Shown here: in pieces, positions 27,604 to 36,238 of the stretch | How the letters are laid out: the number at the start of each line of letters is the position of its first letter | Position numbering within the stretch: position 1 is the stretch's first letter | Assembly: GCA_027315315.1 (NCBI GenBank) | Contig: DAHUYG010000039.1 | Span: forward strand, 1-64,000 | Direction: 5' to 3' | Source of the DNA: Acidimicrobiaceae bacterium | GTDB lineage: Bacteria > Actinomycetota > Acidimicrobiia > Acidimicrobiales > RAAP-2 | DNA length: 64,000 nt | The notes under the pieces: model-generated | Seen by the model: the letters and a program-made list of their open reading frames with translations, nothing else | Database searches by the model: none | Told to the model about the DNA's origin: nothing | Position numbers and translations under genes: made by a program

Positions 27604-28110
27604 TCAGCGATCGGATCTCGTGACCGAAGTCGCGAACCGCGTCAGTGTACCCACCGGCCTCACCCGGCCGACAGCCGAGGCGAGGGCGTCCGGGGGGACC
27701 AACCCCGGGGCGAGCTCGGCCAGCGGGACCAGCACGAAGCGCCGCTCGTACATGCGGGGGTGGGGGACGACGAGGTCGGGCTCGTGCACCCTCTCGTCGC
27801 CGACCAAAAGGACGTCCGCGTCGAGCGTCCGCGGGCCGAAGGCGACGGTCCGGACGCGCTGCGCGTCGTCCTCGAGCGCCCGGCAGCGCTCGAGGAGCCG
27901 GTGGGGCGAGTCCGAGGTGGACAGCTCGATCACCGCGTTGAGATAGGGGCCCTGCTCGGGGCCGCCGACCGGCTCGGTCTCATAGACCGAGGAGGCCGCC
28001 ACGACGTCGCCCGGCGCCGCCAGCAGCTCGGCGGCGCGCTCGAGGTGCTCGAGACGGTCCCCCAGGTTGGAGCCGAGCCCGACAAAGGCCCGGCGCGCCC
28101 CGGGGCTCAC
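27604..28110 (-). CDS. folK: 2-amino-4-hydroxy-6-hydroxymethyldihydropteridine pyrophosphokinase
   Basis: A 168-residue folate enzyme. FVGLGSNLGDR opens the fold. SSVYETEPVGGPEQGPYLNAV binds the pterin. The ATP-site signature FGPRTLDADVLL, then VPHPRMYERRFVLVPL, identify HPPK. The GTG start overlaps the folB stop as GTGA. FolK makes the diphosphate used by FolP. Confidence 0.94.
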   Translation of the reverse strand: MSPGARRAFVGLGSNLGDRLEHLERAAELLAAPGDVVAASSVYETEPVGGPEQGPYLNAVIELSTSDSPHRLLERCRALEDDAQRVRTVAFGPRTLDADVLLVGDERVHEPDLVVPHPRMYERRFVLVPLAELAPGLVPPDALASAVGRVRPVGTLTRFATSVTRSDR

Positions 28111-28496
28111 CCCGCCGGTCGGTCCCGCCGCCGCGTGACCCGCACGCCGACCGAGCCGAGGTCCTCGGGGATCGGGGGCCGGAGCTTGCGCACCACCACG
28201 TGGGCCGCCTCGACCCGCTCGTCGAGCGCCACCATCGCGCCGGCCAGCGCGCCGGCCAGCGCCTCGAGCAGCGCGAAGGAGCTCGACCGCACGAGAGCGG
28301 CGGCAGCCTCCACCGCGGCGCCGTAGTCGACCGTGTCGGCGAGGCCGTCGCTCTGCGCCGCCGGGGCGGTGTCGAGGTCGAGGTCGATGTCGAGCTCGAA
28401 GGGCTGGGGGCGCTCGCGCTCTTCGGGCAGGGCGCCGTGGGTGCCGACGACCCGCAGGGAGCGGATCTCGATGCGACCGGGCTCGGACCCGCTCAC
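28107..28496 (-). CDS. folB: dihydroneopterin aldolase
   Basis: A 129-residue aldolase/epimerase of the tunnelling fold. IRSLRVVGTHGALPEERERPQPF carries the N-terminal signature in two blocks, with the conserved Glu after GALP. TVDYGAAVEAA and LLEALAGALAG follow. VVVRKLRPPIPED includes the catalytic Lys. The start is GTG. It makes the hydroxymethylpterin consumed by FolK, to which it is coupled. Confidence 0.92.
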   Translation of the reverse strand: MSGSEPGRIEIRSLRVVGTHGALPEERERPQPFELDIDLDLDTAPAAQSDGLADTVDYGAAVEAAAALVRSSSFALLEALAGALAGAMVALDERVEAAHVVVRKLRPPIPEDLGSVGVRVTRRRDRPAG

Positions 28497-28506
28497 CGCG
28501 CCCCGC

Positions 28507-29022
28507 TCACCCGGCGAAGCGCGGCGCAGGCCCCTCGAGCGCGACCACGAGCTCGCGTCCGGCCGGCCCCATCTGGCGGCCCATCATGCGCTCGACGGTC
28601 GCCACGGCCTGGGGGACCACCGGGATCCGCCCCGACCACACGAGGAAGCCGGCCACGACCCCCATCACCCGGTCGCCCAGCTCCTCTTGGTGCAGCAGCA
28701 CCCGCTGTCCGTTGGCGAGCGAGTTGCGCAGGTCGGCGTAGCACTCCTCGAGGACCGCCCGCGGGTCGGTGCCCGAGGGGAGCGGGTAGTGGGCCCACAC
28801 GAGCTCCCCCTCGTCGTACGCATGGAGGTTGTGGGGGGACGGGAGCAGCGAGATGACCCGGTCGAAGCCCTGGACCCGCAGCCAGATGATCTCCTCCTGG
28901 CGGCGCACCCGGCGGTGGTTGGGCGCGAAGCCCCCGGGGCGCTCGCTCACCGCGAAGCGGTCCCGCAGCACCCAGGTGAAATTGCGCGGCTCGATGCCCG
29001 CCGCCCACTTGCCCTTCACCAC
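28507..29022 (-). CDS. tyrosine-phosphatase-like protein lacking the catalytic cysteine
   Basis: A 171-residue protein inside the folate run. Its layout resembles a small dual-specificity phosphatase: a strand (GFDRVISLL), a loop (YDEGELVWAHYPLP), a helix, then VLLHQEELGDRVMGVVAGFLV. The last block sits where HCX5R should be, but reads His111-Gln112-x5-Arg118, so the nucleophilic Cys is Gln. It would therefore be inactive as a cysteine phosphatase. The GTG at 29022 follows GAGGG. A binding or scaffold role, or a different chemistry, are options. I do not recognise a named family. Confidence 0.75.
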   Translation of the reverse strand: MVKGKWAAGIEPRNFTWVLRDRFAVSERPGGFAPNHRRVRRQEEIIWLRVQGFDRVISLLPSPHNLHAYDEGELVWAHYPLPSGTDPRAVLEECYADLRNSLANGQRVLLHQEELGDRVMGVVAGFLVWSGRIPVVPQAVATVERMMGRQMGPAGRELVVALEGPAPRFAG

Positions 29023-29032
29023 GGCCTGGCCC

Positions 29033-29854
29033 TCATCGTCCCGGGCCCGGCCCGGCCCGGCCCACCAGGCGCGCCGCGTGCAGCGCCGAGACCACATCGT
29101 GCACCCGCACCATCTGGACGCCCCGGGCCATCGCCCAGGTGCTCGACGCGATGGTGCCCTCGAGGCGCTCCTCGGCCGGGAGCGGCTCGCCGCCGGCGGC
29201 GCCGACGTGGCCGAGGAACGACGTGTTGGACGTCCCGACGAGCACCCGGGCCCCGATGCGCTCGGCCGCCTCGACCAGTTCGCCCACGTGAGCGAGGAGG
29301 GTGAGGTTGTGCGCGGCAGTCTTGGCGAACCCGATGCCCGGGTCGACCCACACCTCCCCCACCCCCGCCGAGCGCGCCCGGCGGGCCAGGTCGAGCACGT
29401 GGGCGTGCACCTCGGCCACGACGTCGTCGTAGTGCACCCGCGCCTGCATGTCGGCCGGCGTGCCCCGGGAGTGCATCGCCACCCACCCGGCCCCCGACTC
29501 GGCGGCGACCCCGGCGAGCGTCCCCGAGACGTCGTTCACGATCCCCGCACCGGCGGCGAGCGCGGCGCGGGCCACGGCCGGCTTGACCGTGTCGATCGAG
29601 ACCGGCCCGATCGACGCCCGCGCCTCGAGCACCGGGAGCACCCGGCGGAGCTCCTCGGCCTCCTCGACGGGCCGGGCGCCCGGCCGGCTCGACTCGCCGC
29701 CGACGTCGACCACGTCGGCCCCCTGCTCGAACATGGCCTGGCCCCGCACAATCGCGGCCTCGGCCGTCAGGTAGCGCCCACCGTCGAAGAACGAGTCGGG
29801 GGTCACGTTGAGCACCCCCATCACCAGGGGACGATCGACGCCCTCGCCCGTCAT
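29033..29854 (-). CDS. folP: dihydropteroate synthase
   Basis: A 273-residue TIM-barrel enzyme joining p-aminobenzoate to the pterin. GVLNVTPDSFFDGGRY, DVGGESSRPGARPV, SIDTVKP, IVNDVSG, DPGIGFAK and RVHDV are all present, so pterin-binding residues are kept. The loop that normally reads S-R-K-x-F reads S-N-T-S-F (209-213), so the conserved Arg and Lys are missing. A weaker or altered pABA site is possible. It lies between folE and the phosphatase-like gene. Confidence 0.92.
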   Translation of the reverse strand: MTGEGVDRPLVMGVLNVTPDSFFDGGRYLTAEAAIVRGQAMFEQGADVVDVGGESSRPGARPVEEAEELRRVLPVLEARASIGPVSIDTVKPAVARAALAAGAGIVNDVSGTLAGVAAESGAGWVAMHSRGTPADMQARVHYDDVVAEVHAHVLDLARRARSAGVGEVWVDPGIGFAKTAAHNLTLLAHVGELVEAAERIGARVLVGTSNTSFLGHVGAAGGEPLPAEERLEGTIASSTWAMARGVQMVRVHDVVSALHAARLVGRAGPGPGR

Positions 29855-29909: not shown

Positions 29910-30479
29910 TCAGCGCCCGTGGACGAACTGCATGGCCTCGGCGCGCGTGGCCGGGTCCCGGCGGAACAGCCCCCGCACGGCCGAGGTCACCGTGAGGGTC
30001 CCGGGCTTCTTCACGCCGCGCATCGACATGCACAGGTGCTCGGCCTCCACCACCACGAGGACGCCCCGGGGGTCCAGTGCGCCCTCGATGGCGTCGGCGA
30101 TCTCGGTGGTCAGCCGCTCTTGGACCTGCAGGCGCCGGGCGTAGCCCTCGACCAGGCGGGCCAGCTTGGAGAGGCCGGTGATCCGCCCGTCGGCGCTCGG
30201 GATGTAGGCGACGTGGGCCCGCCCGATGAAGGGCACGAGGTGGTGCTCGCACAGCGAGGCGAAGGGGATGTCGCGCACCATCACCATCTCGTCGTGGCCA
30301 GCCTCGAAGGTGACCGTGAGGTGGCGCCCCGGGTCGTCGGCGAGGCCCGAGAAGAGCTCCTCGTACATTGCGGCGACCCTGGCCGGCGTTTTTGTGAGCC
30401 CGTCTCGCGAGGGGTCCTCGCCGATGGCCTCCAGAATCTCCGCGACCGCCTTCTCCACGCGCGCGATGTCGACCGCCAC
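29910..30479 (-). CDS. folE: GTP cyclohydrolase I
   Basis: A 189-residue enzyme making dihydroneopterin triphosphate, the entry to folate. Zinc ligands lie in [12 protein letters not shown] and [33 protein letters not shown] and TVTSAVRG are standard. GTG start. In many actinobacteria ftsH separates hpt and folE; here the gap to tilS/hprT is only 6 bases. Confidence 0.96.
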
Positions 30480-30485
30480 GCCGCC

Positions 30486-31991
30486 TCAGCGCCCCTCGGG
30501 GGGCCGGTAGAGGTGGACGGCCCGGAGGTTGCGGTACCGCTCGTCGACGTCGAGCCCGTAGCCGACGACGAAGGCCGAGGGGATCTTGAACCCGACGTAG
30601 CGCAGGTCGAGGGGCACCCGCTGCTCGCCCTCCTTCACCAAGAGCGCGCACACCTCGAGGCTGGCCGGCCGGCGGGCCTGGAGATAGCGGCGCAGGTAGT
30701 TGAGCGTGAGCCCGCTGTCGATGATGTCCTCTACCACGAGCACGTGGCGGCCCTCGAGGTCGGCGTCGAGGTCCTTCACGATGCGCACGACGCCCGAGGT
30801 GCGCGTGGCGCTCCCATAGGAGGACACCGCCATGAAGTCGACGTCGACGGGGAGGTCGATGGCGCGGGCCAGATCGCTCATGAAGATCATGGCGCCCTTC
30901 AGGACCCCGACGAGCAGCGGCGCGTCCTGCGCGTAGTCGGCGGTGATGGCGGCGCCCAGCTCGGCCACCCGTTCGGCCAGGGCCTCGGCGGTGACCACCG
31001 GCTCGCCGACCTCGGCGAGGCCCCAGCGCGGCACCGACGAAGCGGCACGCTCCGTCTTCACCGGCGGAACCTTACCGGAACGCCCCTCGAGGGCCAGGCG
31101 GCGCTCCGAGCGGCGGACGCGGCGGCCCCCGGCGAGCTCGGTCGCGACGCGCGCCCCCGACGCCACCTCGAGCACGCGGGCCACCTCGGCGGCGCTCGGC
31201 GGGTGTCCCCCCGGCGACCCGGGGCTGGCGAGCCACTGGCGGACGGCGCGGCGCGCGAGGGCCAGCGGGGCCGCGCTGAGCGCCCTCGCGTCGGTCGGAT
31301 CCGGCACCGCGCCGGGGACGAGCGCCCCGAGGAGCTCCGACTCGTCGCGCAGGAGCTCGGCCTGGCGCGCCAGCACCGGCACGACGTCGCGACGGGCGAT
31401 CGCCGCACAGAGCGGCAGCAGCTCGTGGCGGACGCGGTTGCGGAGGTGACGGGGGTCGTCGTTGGAGGGGTCCCGGACCGGGTCGAACCCCATGGCGGCG
31501 CACAGCTCCTCGGTCTCGCGCCGGCGCAGCCCGAGCATCGGGTGCCGGGAGCCCGGCGCCATCCCCGAGAGCCCGTCGAGTCCGGCGCCGCGCAGCAGGT
31601 TGCACAGCACCGTCTCGGCCTGGTCGTCCATCGTGTGGCCGGTGGCAACGTCCGCCGGCAGGAGCGCGTAGCGCGCCGCCCGGGCCCTCGCCTCGAGGTT
31701 CGGGCCGTCGCCGAGCGAGGCCGACTCAGCCCGGAAGGACGCGCCTAGGCGTTCGGCGGCCGAGCGGACCACGTCGGCCTCGGCGTGCGAGCCGGGGCGC
31801 AGCCCGTGATCGACATGGATCGCCGTCACGGCGCATCCGGCCGCCACCGCCAGGGCGAGGAGGGCGAGAGAGTCCGGGCCCCCCGACACCGCGCACGCGA
31901 GCGGGACGCCGGGGGCGGGGAAGGTGCAGCGGGCGAGGAGCCCGGGAACCGAGCCGGGCCAGTCGCCGGGCCCGGCCGGGCCGGGGCTCAC
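30486..31991 (-). CDS. tilS/hprT: fused tRNA(Ile)-lysidine synthetase / hypoxanthine phosphoribosyltransferase
   Basis: One open frame of 501 residues with two enzymes. Residues 1-305 are TilS: the PP-loop is CAVSGGPDS (34-41), then GHTMDDQAETVL and RDPSNDDPRHLRNRVRHELLP split over two motifs. Residues about 325-501 are HPRT: the PRPP loop is VLVVEDIIDSGLTL (417-430), with GVLKGAMIFMSDLA before it. TilS modifies the tRNA-Ile wobble base; HPRT salvages purines. No stop lies between them. An internal GTG (31061, residue 311) might also give free HPRT. The GTG start overlaps the zincin stop. Confidence 0.92.
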   Translation of the reverse strand: MSPGPAGPGDWPGSVPGLLARCTFPAPGVPLACAVSGGPDSLALLALAVAAGCAVTAIHVDHGLRPGSHAEADVVRSAAERLGASFRAESASLGDGPNLEARARAARYALLPADVATGHTMDDQAETVLCNLLRGAGLDGLSGMAPGSRHPMLGLRRRETEELCAAMGFDPVRDPSNDDPRHLRNRVRHELLPLCAAIARRDVVPVLARQAELLRDESELLGALVPGAVPDPTDARALSAAPLALARRAVRQWLASPGSPGGHPPSAAEVARVLEVASGARVATELAGGRRVRRSERRLALEGRSGKVPPVKTERAASSVPRWGLAEVGEPVVTAEALAERVAELGAAITADYAQDAPLLVGVLKGAMIFMSDLARAIDLPVDVDFMAVSSYGSATRTSGVVRIVKDLDADLEGRHVLVVEDIIDSGLTLNYLRRYLQARRPASLEVCALLVKEGEQRVPLDLRYVGFKIPSAFVVGYGLDVDERYRNLRAVHLYRPPEGR

Positions 31992-33118
31992 CCCGCCAGA
32001 GCGGGGGGCGAGACCCTGCGGACCCACGCCGCCGGGTCCCTGATCTCGGCGAGCGAGGGCAGCCACTCGGGTCCCTGCCACACCCGGTCGAACAGCCGGC
32101 GGCCGCCCGCCTCCTCGACCGAGCGCACGAACTTCTCGCCCTCGGCGTACTGGCGGAACTTGGCCTCGAGCCCGAGGATCTGCTGGAGGAGCCGGGCGGC
32201 GCCCTTGGCCTGCTCCCGGCGCTGCTGGAGCACCGCGCTGAAGTGGGCGGCCCCCGGGACCGCCTCGGCCCCGGCCCGGTCCATGGTCACGTCGCCGTGG
32301 CCCTCGAGCAGGCTCATGAGGGCCTGGATCCGCTGGAGCGCCTCGAGCTGCTCGTCGGTCGCGACGAGCCCGATCACCCCGGTGTCGCGCAGCGGGCTGC
32401 GCCCGGCCCGGATCTCCTGGGCCGCCCGGCGCACTGCCTCGAGCATCTGGCGGGGGTCCGAGCCGAAGGGCTCGAGGCCGCCCTGCACGAGGGAGAGGAA
32501 GTAGGAGCGCAGCCACGGCACCGCCATGAACTGCGCCCGGTGGGTGACCTCGTGGAGGGCGAGCCACAGGCGGAACTCGGAAGGCTCGAAGCCGTGGCGG
32601 GCCTCGATCGCCGCCACGTTGGGCCCGACGTAGTACACGACGTCCTGGTGCTCCTCGTCGACGCCGTCGGTCAGGAGCAGGTCGTACTGGCCGAGCACCC
32701 TCGTCGACATCCACGCCAGGACGAGGGCCAGCTGGGCCCCGTTCATCGAGCGCGAGGCCCCGGCCAGGTGCCGGGAGAGCCCGGGGGCGACCCCCGAGAG
32801 CGGCGAGGCCGGCTTGCGCTCGGCCAGCTTGGACAGCGTGGGGCCGAGCAGGCGCTGGAACGAGGCGACGTTCGCGCTCACCCAGTCGGCCCGGTCGATG
32901 ACCCGGCCGCGCGCCTTGGTGGGGACGACGAGGCCGGTGGCCACACCGACCAGGGACTCGGCCCGCTCGGTCATCTCGTCGAAGTCGCGCTGCATGGCCG
33001 CCGGGCGGTACGAGGCGGGGGTCGCCGTGCGACCGGCCGCCCACCGGGCGACCCGATCGGCGATGGCCCAGTCGACGACGGGCGGCTGCTCGGCGCGCTC
33101 GCCTTGGTCGTCGCTCAC
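31988..33118 (-). CDS. zincin-like metalloprotease family protein (DUF2342 type)
   Basis: A 376-residue protein with a zinc-binding HExxH motif (LALHEVTHRAQF, near residue 175) and a second conserved block SLLEGHGDVTMDRAG that can supply the third ligand. Homologues lie beside tilS in mycobacteria and have been annotated as coenzyme F420 biosynthesis-associated, without proof. The GTG at 33118 comes 25 bases past rsrA. It has no signal peptide, so it is likely cytoplasmic. Substrate unknown. Confidence 0.87.
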   Translation of the reverse strand: MSDDQGERAEQPPVVDWAIADRVARWAAGRTATPASYRPAAMQRDFDEMTERAESLVGVATGLVVPTKARGRVIDRADWVSANVASFQRLLGPTLSKLAERKPASPLSGVAPGLSRHLAGASRSMNGAQLALVLAWMSTRVLGQYDLLLTDGVDEEHQDVVYYVGPNVAAIEARHGFEPSEFRLWLALHEVTHRAQFMAVPWLRSYFLSLVQGGLEPFGSDPRQMLEAVRRAAQEIRAGRSPLRDTGVIGLVATDEQLEALQRIQALMSLLEGHGDVTMDRAGAEAVPGAAHFSAVLQQRREQAKGAARLLQQILGLEAKFRQYAEGEKFVRSVEEAGGRRLFDRVWQGPEWLPSLAEIRDPAAWVRRVSPPALAG

Positions 33119-33143
33119 GCCGGCCGGCCCGGGCGCGGGCCCC

Positions 33144-33437
33144 TCACGCGTCGCCCACCCGCTCGGCCTCGATGAGATCGGCGATCTTCTGGCGGAGCGA
33201 ATCGGGCACGTGGTCCTTGCAACGGTCGGCGATGACCCGGCGCAGCTCGGTCTCGAAGCCAGCCGCGCCGGCGCACGGACCGCAGTAGTCGAGGTGGTCG
33301 GCGATCTGGGTCCGGCGCTCGTCGGTGAGCTCGCCGTCGAGGTAGTGGTAGAGCTGGTGGATCGCCGAGCCACAGTCGACCTGTGCCGCCCCGAAGAGGG
33401 GATCGTGCGAATCCATCCGATCGTGACCTTCGCTCAT
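33144..33437 (-). CDS. rsrA: zinc-containing anti-sigma factor, RsrA type
   Basis: A 97-residue ZAS-family protein. The redox-zinc motif is HLDYCGPC (His48, Cys52, Cys55), with an upstream Cys22 in QVDCGSAIH. In Streptomyces RsrA, disulfide formation between such cysteines frees SigR under thiol stress. The ATG overlaps the sigma-factor stop as ATGA, fixing start and partner. The pair implies a mycothiol-type thiol-stress circuit. Confidence 0.92.
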
Positions 33438-34012
33438 TCGGACCGCCCCGGTGCGGAACTCACCAAGCCCCGTGACTCGGCGAAGTCGTGCAACGCCTTC
33501 TGCAGGGCCCTTCTTCCCCGGTGGATCCGGCTCATCACCGTGCCGATGGGCACGTCGGTGATCTCGGCGATCTCCTTGTAGGAGAACCCCTCGACGTCGG
33601 CCAGGAGGACGGCGATCCGGAAGGCGTCGGGCAGCGACTCGATCGCCGACTTCACCTCGTCGTCGGTGAAGCTGGCGAGAGCCTCCTCCTCGGCGCTCCG
33701 GCTCGAGGCGCCGTTGGCCGGCGACAGGCGCTTGTAGAGGTAGAGGTCCTCCACGTCCTCGACGTCGGCGACCTCGGGCCGGCGCTTCGCCGCCCGGTAC
33801 GAGTTGATGTAGGTATTGGTGAGGATGCGGTACAGCCACGCCCGCAGGTTCGTCCCCTCGGTGAAGCCCCCGAACCCCCGATAGGCGCGCAGGTAGGTCT
33901 CCTGGACGAGGTCCTCGGCGTCGCTCGGATTGCGCGTCATGCGCAGCGCCGCGCTGTACAGCGCCGGCATGTGCTCCATGGCGAGCTCGGTGAAACGAGC
34001 CTGATCGGCCAT
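33434..34012 (-). CDS. sigR: ECF sigma factor, SigR/SigH type
   Basis: A 192-residue ECF sigma factor. Region 2 spans about residues 12-80, with [17 protein letters not shown] and [18 protein letters not shown]. Region 4 has [17 protein letters not shown] and [18 protein letters not shown]. The length, the short linker and the coupled RsrA support SigR/SigH. Typical targets are thioredoxin, mycothiol and protein-quality-control genes. I found no GGAAT/GTT autoregulatory promoter directly upstream. Confidence 0.93.
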
Positions 34013-34079: not shown

Positions 34080-34925
34080 ATGACCCCATCGGAATCCCGT
34101 GTCAGCGGCGGCCCCCACGGTCCCACCGGCCTGGTCGAACGGGACGGGGCCGACGTCGCCACCTGGGGCATCTTCGAGGGTCGGGGGCTCGAGGCGGTGG
34201 TCACGACCCGGGACGGCGGCGTCTCGGAGGGGCCGTTCGCCTCGCTCAACCTGGCGCTCCACGTGGGCGACGAACCCGACCGGGTGCTCGAGAACCGGAG
34301 GCGCGCCCTCTCGCTCCTCGGGGCCGGGCTCGAGGAACTGATCGTCGCCGAGCAGGTCCACGGAGCCCACGTCTCGGTGGTCGGGGCGGCGGAGCGCTCA
34401 CGCGGGGCGCGCTCGACGGCCGACGCGATCGGGGCGACCGACGCGCTCGTCACGAGCGAGGGGGGCGTCGTCGTCTCGATCCTGGTCGCCGACTGCGCTC
34501 CGGTCGCGCTCTTCGACCCCGCATCGCGGGTCCTTGGCTGCGCGCACGCGGGATGGCGCGGCGCGACGGGGGGCGTCATCGAGGCGACGATCGGCGCGAT
34601 GGCCGCGCTCGGGGCCCGGCCGGGCCGCGTGCTCGCCGGCATCGGCCCCTGCGTCGGCGAGCACGCCTACGAGGTCGGGGGCGAGGTCCTGGACGCGGCC
34701 CGACGCCATCTCGGTGCCGCGGGGCCCTGGGCGAGGCCGGGGCGCGCCGGGCACTTTTGGTTCGACCTCGCCGGGTATCTCGAGGTCCTCCTCCAGCGCG
34801 CCGGGGTCGCGGCCGGGCACATCGAACGCTCGGCACTCGAGACCGGCCCGCCCGGGCCGTTCTTCAGCGCGCGGGCCGAGGGAACCTGCGGCCGTTTCGG
34901 ACTGCTGGCCCGGATCGAACCGTGA
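34080..34925 (+). CDS. pgeF: peptidoglycan editing factor PgeF / YfiH-YlmD family
   Basis: A 281-residue member of the multicopper-oxidase-like laccase (YfiH) family. VAEQVHGAHV, VADCAPVALFD and CAHAGWRGATGG hold the His/Cys zinc ligands. GIGPCVGEHAYEVG and the C-terminal GTCGRFGLLARI complete the pattern. E. coli PgeF cleaves wrongly made UDP-MurNAc-L-Ser; other members act on purine nucleosides. The stop overlaps murL as GTGA. That neighbourhood favours the cell-wall editing role. Confidence 0.9.
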   Translation: MTPSESRVSGGPHGPTGLVERDGADVATWGIFEGRGLEAVVTTRDGGVSEGPFASLNLALHVGDEPDRVLENRRRALSLLGAGLEELIVAEQVHGAHVSVVGAAERSRGARSTADAIGATDALVTSEGGVVVSILVADCAPVALFDPASRVLGCAHAGWRGATGGVIEATIGAMAALGARPGRVLAGIGPCVGEHAYEVGGEVLDAARRHLGAAGPWARPGRAGHFWFDLAGYLEVLLQRAGVAAGHIERSALETGPPGPFFSARAEGTCGRFGLLARIEP

Positions 34926-36238
34926 GCGGGCCGTCCTTCCGCTACGCCGGCCACGAGCTCGACGCGTCCGACGGCGTGCTCAGGTGCCGCTACGCGCTCG
35001 GCGACCGGTCCTTCGCCGAGGTCCTCGAGCTCGGTGAGGGCGACTGGGACACCCCCGCCGCTATCGAGGCGGCCCGGCTCGTCTACCTGCTGGCCGCCGT
35101 CTCGTACTACAAGACGGCGGCGCCCCGTCGCGTCGAGCTCGACGTCGCGCTGCGCCCGGCCGAGCGCGACGCGCTCGTTGAGCACTACGTGCGCGGCCTC
35201 GGCGAGTTCGCCCACCACAACGGCATCGACCTCGGACGCGTCGAGTTCGCAGCGGAGACCCGCGACGCGCCCGGCGCCGACTACGTGCCGCGCACCGCCG
35301 CCCCGCTCGTCCCCTTCGGCGGGGGCATCGACTCGATCGTGACCGTCGAGTCGCTCAAGGGGCGCCACCCGGGCGCGACCCTCTTCGTGGTCGAGCCCCA
35401 CACCGAGCCCTTCGCCGCGATCGAGGGCGTCGTCCCCATCACCGGGCTCCCCGTCGCCCGGGTGCGCCGGAGCATCGACCCCCAGCTCTTCGAGGACCCC
35501 GCGATCTCGGGCTTCTTGCAGGGCCACGTGCCGGTGACCGGGATCATCACCGCGCTCGCCACCCTCGTCGCGATCGGGCGGGGCCTCGACGCGGTGGTGA
35601 TGTCCAACGAGTGGTCGGCGTCCGTCGGCAACCTGGTGGTCGGGGGTCGGGTCGTCAATCACCAGTACTCGAAGAGCCAGGACTTCGAGGAGCGCTTCGC
35701 CCGGATGGTGCGCGACGCCTTGGGCGACCGCATCCGCGTCTTCTCCTTTCTCCGCCCCTACAGCGAGCTGTGGGTGGCCGAGCGGTTCGCGCGCATGGGC
35801 GAGTACCACCGGGCCTTCCGCAGCTGCAACCGCGCGTTCCCGATCGACCCCGCCAGGCGCCTCGAGCACTGGTGCGGCGAGTGCGACAAGTGCTGCTTCA
35901 TCGACCTGGTGCTCGCCCCGTTCATGGCCCGGGTCGAGCTCGAGGCGGTGTTCGCCGGGCGCGAGCCGCTGGCTCGGCCCGAGCTCGCCGACCGCTTCGA
36001 GCGCCTGGTCGGCCTCTCGCCGGACCCGAAGCCCTTCGAGTGCGTGGGTGAGGTCGGCGAGTGCCGGGCCGCCGCCGCGCTCGGCGCGGTGCGCGGCGAC
36101 CGAAACGAGACGGCCCTGCTCCAGGCGCTGGCCGCCCGGCTGCCGGCCGTCTCCCCGGCCGAGGTCGCCATGCTCCTCGCACCCCATCGCCCGAACGACG
36201 TCCCCGATGACTACGCGACCGAGGATCAGCTGGTCTGA
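34922..36238 (+). CDS. murL: MurL-type UDP-MurNAc-L-Ala-L-Glu epimerase
   Basis: A 438-residue protein. An N-terminal domain is followed by the PP-loop-like PFGGGIDSIVTVE (131-143), then MSNEWSASVGN (228-238), NHQYSKSQDFEERFARMV and a Cys cluster WCGECDKCC (317-325). These fit the MurL family, which in Xanthomonas epimerises the terminal L-Glu of UDP-MurNAc-L-Ala-L-Glu to D-Glu in an ATP-dependent reaction. The GTG start is set by the GTGA overlap with pgeF. The following murD-type gene is the expected partner. Assignment rests on motif memory and context. Confidence 0.85.
   Translation: MSGPSFRYAGHELDASDGVLRCRYALGDRSFAEVLELGEGDWDTPAAIEAARLVYLLAAVSYYKTAAPRRVELDVALRPAERDALVEHYVRGLGEFAHHNGIDLGRVEFAAETRDAPGADYVPRTAAPLVPFGGGIDSIVTVESLKGRHPGATLFVVEPHTEPFAAIEGVVPITGLPVARVRRSIDPQLFEDPAISGFLQGHVPVTGIITALATLVAIGRGLDAVVMSNEWSASVGNLVVGGRVVNHQYSKSQDFEERFARMVRDALGDRIRVFSFLRPYSELWVAERFARMGEYHRAFRSCNRAFPIDPARRLEHWCGECDKCCFIDLVLAPFMARVELEAVFAGREPLARPELADRFERLVGLSPDPKPFECVGEVGECRAAAALGAVRGDRNETALLQALAARLPAVSPAEVAMLLAPHRPNDVPDDYATEDQLV

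Follow-up and report, generated by a model that had tools for sequence, protein, structure and literature searches.

A predicted dual-specificity phosphatase-fold pseudophosphatase, mostly encoded beside folate genes, is an order-wide core gene of Acidimicrobiia

Introduction

To our knowledge, pseudoenzymes of the protein tyrosine phosphatase (PTP) fold have been studied almost only in eukaryotes. STYX and MK-STYX, both eukaryotic, have the dual-specificity phosphatase (DSP) fold and have lost the catalytic Cys. STYX is described as carrying Gly in its place and as regaining activity when this Gly is changed to Cys (PMC8269279). Folate gene clusters are also reported to contain odd phosphohydrolases, FolQ (Nudix) and FolQ2 (HD), at the dihydroneopterin triphosphate (DHNTP) step, and the same report describes the gene for DHNTP pyrophosphatase as missing in most bacteria and ascribes removal of the last phosphate to a non-specific phosphatase (PMC1971073). 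Among the matches listed in our search of the open-access literature on bacterial pseudophosphatases and inactive bacterial DSPs, there was no account of this protein family.

Here we describe an ORF within a folate gene cluster in the window (the whole 64,000-nucleotide stretch of Acidimicrobiaceae DNA analysed), whose product is best regarded as a bacterial form of DSP pseudophosphatase, spread through an entire order, in which the conserved site has shifted. The original prediction had proposed a phosphatase-like protein with Gln for the catalytic Cys and a tie to folate synthesis; the absence of the catalytic Cys from a DSP fold is borne out by our analysis, and the functional tie is not.

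The locus and its neighbouring genes

The ORF starts with GTG, encodes 171 amino acids and is separated by 10 bases on each side from the stop of folP and the start of folB (Table 1), in agreement with its earlier placement between the two genes within 11 bases. TilS and hypoxanthine phosphoribosyltransferase (HPT) are encoded upstream in one 852-aa frame without a stop (30486-33044, minus strand), and so may be fused. An F420-associated DUF2342 protein (31988-33373, minus strand) and a SigH/SigR-like sigma factor (33434-34012, minus strand) precede tilS, and a DUF2520 protein near the ORF, like the four Fol proteins, was recognised by a Pfam match over the cut-off.

Table 1. Features of the locus, with positions in the window.
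Feature	Position	Strand	Basis
DSP-fold pseudophosphatase	28507..29022	-	ORF; AlphaFold2 model; Foldseek/VIA; order-wide presence
Degenerate P-loop H111-Q-E-E-L-G-D-R118 in place of HCx5R	28669..28692	-	Alignment to active DSPs; column counts, 144 sequences
Near-invariant strand-loop-helix E27-R28-P-G-G...H36-R37..R40-R41-x-E43-E44	28891..28944	-	Column counts; alignments A1-A3
folP, dihydropteroate synthase, upstream neighbour	29033..29854	-	PF00809; TIGR01496
folB, dihydroneopterin aldolase, downstream neighbour	28107..28496	-	PF02152; TIGR00525
folK, HPPK	27604..28110	-	PF01288; TIGR01498
folE, GTP cyclohydrolase I	29910..30479	-	PF01227; NF006826
tilS-hpt, one open frame	30486..31898 (5' bound approximate)	-	TIGR02432 and TIGR01203 matches

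No Pfam or NCBIfam family matched the 171-aa protein at E 1 or better, no PHROG family did, and a plasmid search with the protein gave no match. When 23 relatives were searched, the best of the weak hits was PF22785, a DSP-PTPase family of polymorphic toxin systems, found for 3 of the 23 with a best E of 0.0072; this hit and those to PF18645, PF12621 and NF005244 were set aside as chance or echoes of the fold.

A DSP fold with a degenerate P-loop

An AlphaFold2 model built from 66 alignment rows (mean pLDDT 87.5, pTM 0.84) predicts a DSP fold for the protein, with a central sheet and with the P-loop flanked by a strand on one side and a helix on the other. The top Foldseek match of this model was DUSP23/VHZ (E 2.5e-8, probability 1.00), among 239 matches at E 0.001 or better, and VIA alignment superposed 145 residues on DUSP23 (2img) with Z 18.6 and rmsd 2.2 and gave Z 15.3 for the pseudophosphatase STYX (2r0b). 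Searching the PDB with the single sequence returned one match, the DSP family protein 25xa_A (E 1.8e-4), which aligned its HCRAGYGR to HQEELGDR; with a 41-row profile the same entry rose to E 2e-8, placing HCx5R over HxEELGDR, and archaeal and reconstructed PTPs ranked behind it. The profile match to DSPs of the PDB, together with the predicted fold, shows that VLLHQEELGDR is no chance motif. The original prediction had read it as HCx5R with Gln for Cys, preceded by the expected strand and followed by a helix, and both elements are found in the model, with His111 in a predicted strand at 108-112 and the predicted helix at 117-129. A fold unrelated to PTPs, which would have spoken against the original prediction, was thus not what the model returned.

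We aligned all collected members to a profile, which reduced 183 loci to 144 distinct sequences, a set biased to the relatives of the ORF because most of the loci fetched were the best-scoring ones. Within this set the position of the catalytic Cys is occupied by 11 residue types (Q 78, R 16, G 15, H 9, E 6, A 5, M 4, N 4, C 4, S 2 and K 1), so the suspected fixed HQx5R signature did not hold: the position accepts many residues besides Gln, which is typical of the ORF's relatives and no rule of the family. Cys and Arg occur together in none of the 144 distinct sequences, and no relative has an intact HCx5R, so the second outcome that would have spoken against the original prediction did not arise either; the four members with Cys read HCEEVSDK, HCDRANEW, HCDRISEW and HCDRVSEW. 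The Gly of HCxxGxxR is likewise present in 0 of 144, and Arg118 is retained in 109 and lost in 35. By sequence the protein is thus a pseudophosphatase, from a family that has lost the Cys, the Gly and often the Arg of HCxxGxxR. The members sampled, having neither Cys with Arg nor the Gly of HCxxG, would all be inactive as PTPs.

The loop has kept other residues. His111, which is also the structural His of active PTPs, is present in 144 of 144 sequences, residue 117 is always acidic (D in 133, E in 11) and residue 113 is E or D in 136. Active PTPs and DSPs also carry a general-acid Asp, in the loop ahead of the helix that leads to the P-loop. The candidate for it here, D86, lies in a stretch of low similarity; it is more than 90% conserved in alignments A1 and A2, and some distant members are without it.

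DUSP23/VHZ, KAP, Tk-PTP and other small single-domain DSPs share with this protein the fold, the succession of strands and helices along about 145 residues, the signature His and the helix after the loop, but the protein described here differs in having no Cys with Arg and no Gly of HCxxG, in its acidic loop and in a family-specific SERPGG...HRxVRRxEE stretch. The closest solved relative by sequence, 25xa_A, matches over residues 13-147 and has a similar start, W-V/I-x3-LA-S..PGG, but it possesses the intact HCRAGYGR loop that is lacking here. STYX and MK-STYX are alike in having a DSP fold that has lost the catalytic Cys. STYX, however, is described as regaining activity on a Gly-to-Cys change (PMC8269279), whereas in the family described here drift has affected the entire loop and there is no constraint on the Cys position; moreover, the gene here is a bacterial core gene.

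Conservation outside the catalytic residues

A different set of residues is under strong purifying selection. At least 140 of the 144 sequences share each of E27, R28, G30, G31, H36, R37, R40, R41, E43, E44, W47, S58, Y69, H111 and G121, with counts of 143 for E27, 140 for R28, 144 for G30, 144 for R37, 143 for R40, 141 for R41, 143 for E44 and 144 for W47, and R156 is found in 138. The most conserved part of the family is 27-44, which in the AlphaFold2 model runs from the end of the second strand through a loop into the first long helix; in known DSPs the corresponding loop borders the active-site pocket. Seven pairs gave dN/dS values of about 0.07-0.28. Across the 72 loci that have all five genes, the median identity to the window's own copy was 65.5% for the ORF protein, vs 58.7% for FolP, 54.6% for FolB, 60.8% for FolK and 77.8% for FolE.

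Distribution in the order

The gene is an order-wide core gene of Acidimicrobiia. Relatives at E 0.001 were found in 366 of the 397 genomes of the order and in 273 of the 292 cleaner ones, nearly always as a single copy. Searching a named collection returned 537 related stretches, and of the best 80, which were kept, nearly all are titled as Acidimicrobiaceae, Acidimicrobiales or Actinobacteria/Actinomycetes metagenome-assembled genomes and two as Acidobacteriota. One copy (L080) is from Aciditerrimonas ferrireducens. One contig (G301:C50) carries two equal-scoring copies both of the gene and of FolK in mirror order (33159-33635, minus strand, and 34736-35212, plus strand), which is probably an assembly palindrome.

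Presence and absence with the folate genes

In the 80 closest loci, the nearest of the window's genes upstream is FolP in 78 and downstream is FolB in 78, on the same strand as the ORF's homologue. In the two loci without FolP, 0 and 145 bases of contig precede the gene; of the two without FolB, one contig ends after 109 bases and the other has no FolB hit in 912 bases. This strong synteny weakens in more distant relatives. A set of 30 loci drawn from 28 families has FolP as the next gene upstream in 20 cases and FolB as the next one downstream in 22, and elsewhere TilS, HPT, FolK or nothing was found beside the gene; neighbours were sought by tblastn with genes of the window, a procedure in which diverged and lost neighbours look the same.

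The family f7 departs from this arrangement. In six of its loci, read over 11-16 kb, the gene adjoins TilS and has no fol gene as a neighbour, and a SigR-like sigma factor gene lies beyond TilS in 5 of the 6, so that the sigma-tilS block stays beside the pseudophosphatase. Five of the 17 f7 genomes (G064, G161, G186, G321 and G354; 96-99% complete, G321 being a single contig) gave no FolB, FolK or FolE hit and have the gene, with the key residues kept in all four of the copies read (L119, L123, L124 and L184). The Pterin_bind hits of the five genomes are in frames of more than 1,100 aa, as in MetH, or score only about 98-102 bits. A further f7 genome, G370, is without FolB and FolK and has FolE. 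In several f7 genomes the FolB and FolK matches fall in one frame of 286-420 aa (for example G006:C1:2326201-2326956 and G134:C1:1883299-1884057), with a shorter Pterin_bind protein nearby and the pseudophosphatase far away, which suggests a FolB-FolK fusion.

The opposite pattern was found in f32, which keeps the folate operon without the gene. With the distant profile A3 at E up to 1, the gene was absent from 11 f32 genomes, which are 91 to 98 or 99% complete, and from two f50 genomes; several other genomes of that search are fragmentary assemblies, and the single match among its 20 genomes, a 44-residue piece at E 0.196, was taken as chance. Eight f32 and f50 genomes whose folP regions were read (G032, G082, G117, G148, G199, G242, G050 and G125) have FolP with FolK downstream in all and FolB between them by tblastn in five, and in G032 and G148 a Pfam FolB match also lies between FolP and FolK. 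Over the order, FolK was found in 373 of 397 genomes; of the 24 without it, 20 were listed, 14 with the gene and 6 without, and of these six, five are 76-80% complete or similar assemblies and one is 89% complete.

These patterns do not support a functional tie to folate synthesis of the kind first proposed: the gene is kept in five near-complete f7 genomes without FolE, FolB and FolK hits, is absent from f32 genomes with fol genes, and in 10 of the 30 loci does not have FolP as the nearest upstream one of the genes searched for. Presence and absence in both directions indicate that each of the two, gene and pathway, can persist where the other is gone, so sharing a tight operon is no proof of sharing a pathway.

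Possible roles

That a dead fold is kept by almost every member of the order, mostly beside folate genes, points to a protein that probably works by binding rather than by phosphate removal. With moderate confidence, we favour as the whole explanation that the order-wide family is a catalytically dead DSP-fold protein with a binding or regulatory role, neither required for folate synthesis nor dependent on it. A conserved face made up of E27-R28-PGG-x4-H36-R37-x2-R40-R41-x-E43-E44, His111 and the acid at 117 would surround the old active-site pocket, as the corresponding segments do in DSPs. Its ligand would be a small anionic molecule or another protein, and binding would regulate that partner. 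Judging from spacing and strand, the gene would be co-transcribed with tilS-hpt-folE-folP-folB-folK, in what may be an inherited gene order. A bolder version, which we consider unlikely though worth stating, is that the entire order relies on the dead phosphatase: a DSP would have become a core-genome sensor or adaptor, with a new pocket (ERPGG...HRxVRRxEE with His111 and the invariant acid) for a central metabolite or for a translation or nucleotide enzyme such as TilS-HPT, the upstream neighbour that persists most, linking tRNA modification, purine salvage and folate supply.

The gene order itself suggests a different role, as a dihydroneopterin (tri)phosphate phosphatase between FolE and FolB or as a scaffold or regulator of Fol enzymes, since the tight synteny with folP and folB on the same strand (78 of 80 loci for each) also fits a functional link. 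The DHNTP step is reported as open in most bacteria (PMC1971073), which leaves a hole of that kind in the pathway. Such a role is nevertheless improbable, given that the five nearly complete f7 genomes without FolE, FolB and FolK hits keep the gene, that f32 genomes and two f50 genomes with FolP and FolK do without it, and that none of the 144 sequences conserves the PTP nucleophile with its Arg; the missing dihydroneopterin-phosphate phosphatase was dropped as the main reading because of this presence and absence both ways and the free Cys position. A gene kept where the pathway is missing cannot encode an obligate enzyme of folate synthesis, but a part in folate handling, for example salvage, would still fit. 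The absence of the gene from six of the 20 listed genomes without FolK speaks against the reading we favour, though several of these six assemblies are incomplete. FolQ and FolQ2, whose folds are unrelated to that of DSPs, are likewise extra genes of folate clusters at the DHNTP step, but they differ from the protein described here, in which catalytic residues are missing and whose gene outlives the pathway.

New chemistry in the old pocket, in which His111 and the acid at 117 would act with the Arg/His/Glu cluster and no Cys would be needed, is somewhat easier to entertain than a folate role but still doubtful. The positions that vary least have charged or polar residues (E27, R28, H36, R37, R40, R41, E43, E44, H111 and D/E117), as an active site would, and a gene that is single-copy nearly everywhere and is surpassed in conservation by just one of its four Fol neighbours would suit an enzyme; however, His111 is the structural His of active PTPs as well, a charged patch suits binding too, and the protein belongs to no Pfam, NCBIfam or PHROG family. 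A phospho-binding role like that of STYX, in which the old P-loop would bind a phosphorylated protein or metabolite and shield it, agrees with the STYX fold match and the retention of Arg118, and STYX is described as acting with Gly for Cys (PMC8269279). The acidic loop (positions 113 and 117), the missing Gly and the loss of Arg in 35 sequences make it very improbable all the same. A decaying pseudogene or a mis-called ORF would account for the absent catalytic residues, but dN/dS well below 1 in seven pairs, a median identity of about 65% across 80 loci and presence in 366 of 397 genomes refute it, leaving it practically no weight.

The protein, on the reading we prefer a catalytically dead one with a binding role, is encoded by a single gene in nearly all genomes of a bacterial order. 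It is better conserved than the neighbouring FolP, FolB and FolK, and its invariant residues have shifted off the nucleophile. Its relatives form a clean set in which to study why a dead phosphatase is retained, and its locus is a caution that a tight operon does not imply a shared pathway.

Relatives outside the order

Of 296 genomes of the phylum, 29 gave a match: 21 belong to the order, 5 lie outside it in the same class, none with an E value above 5.1e-40, and 3 are members of the family f80 in another class, at E of about 1e-20. An active ancestor with HCx5R was not found in these 296 genomes or in 119 genomes of the class of f80, and among the relatives seen, the PDB entry 25xa_A is the nearest whose loop is intact. 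The HC of the signature is kept in most members of f80, where W replaces the Arg of the P-loop (VHCDR..EW or nearly so), and others have VHVDR..EW or VHVNR..EW; this W for R indicates that f80 is dead too. The copy of the distant family in genome G472 seems to lose its frame after the P-loop, and its C-terminus was left out. Three of the f80 loci (L140-L142 and L200-L215) have, as judged by eye, a thioesterase-like ORF nearby and are without fol genes.
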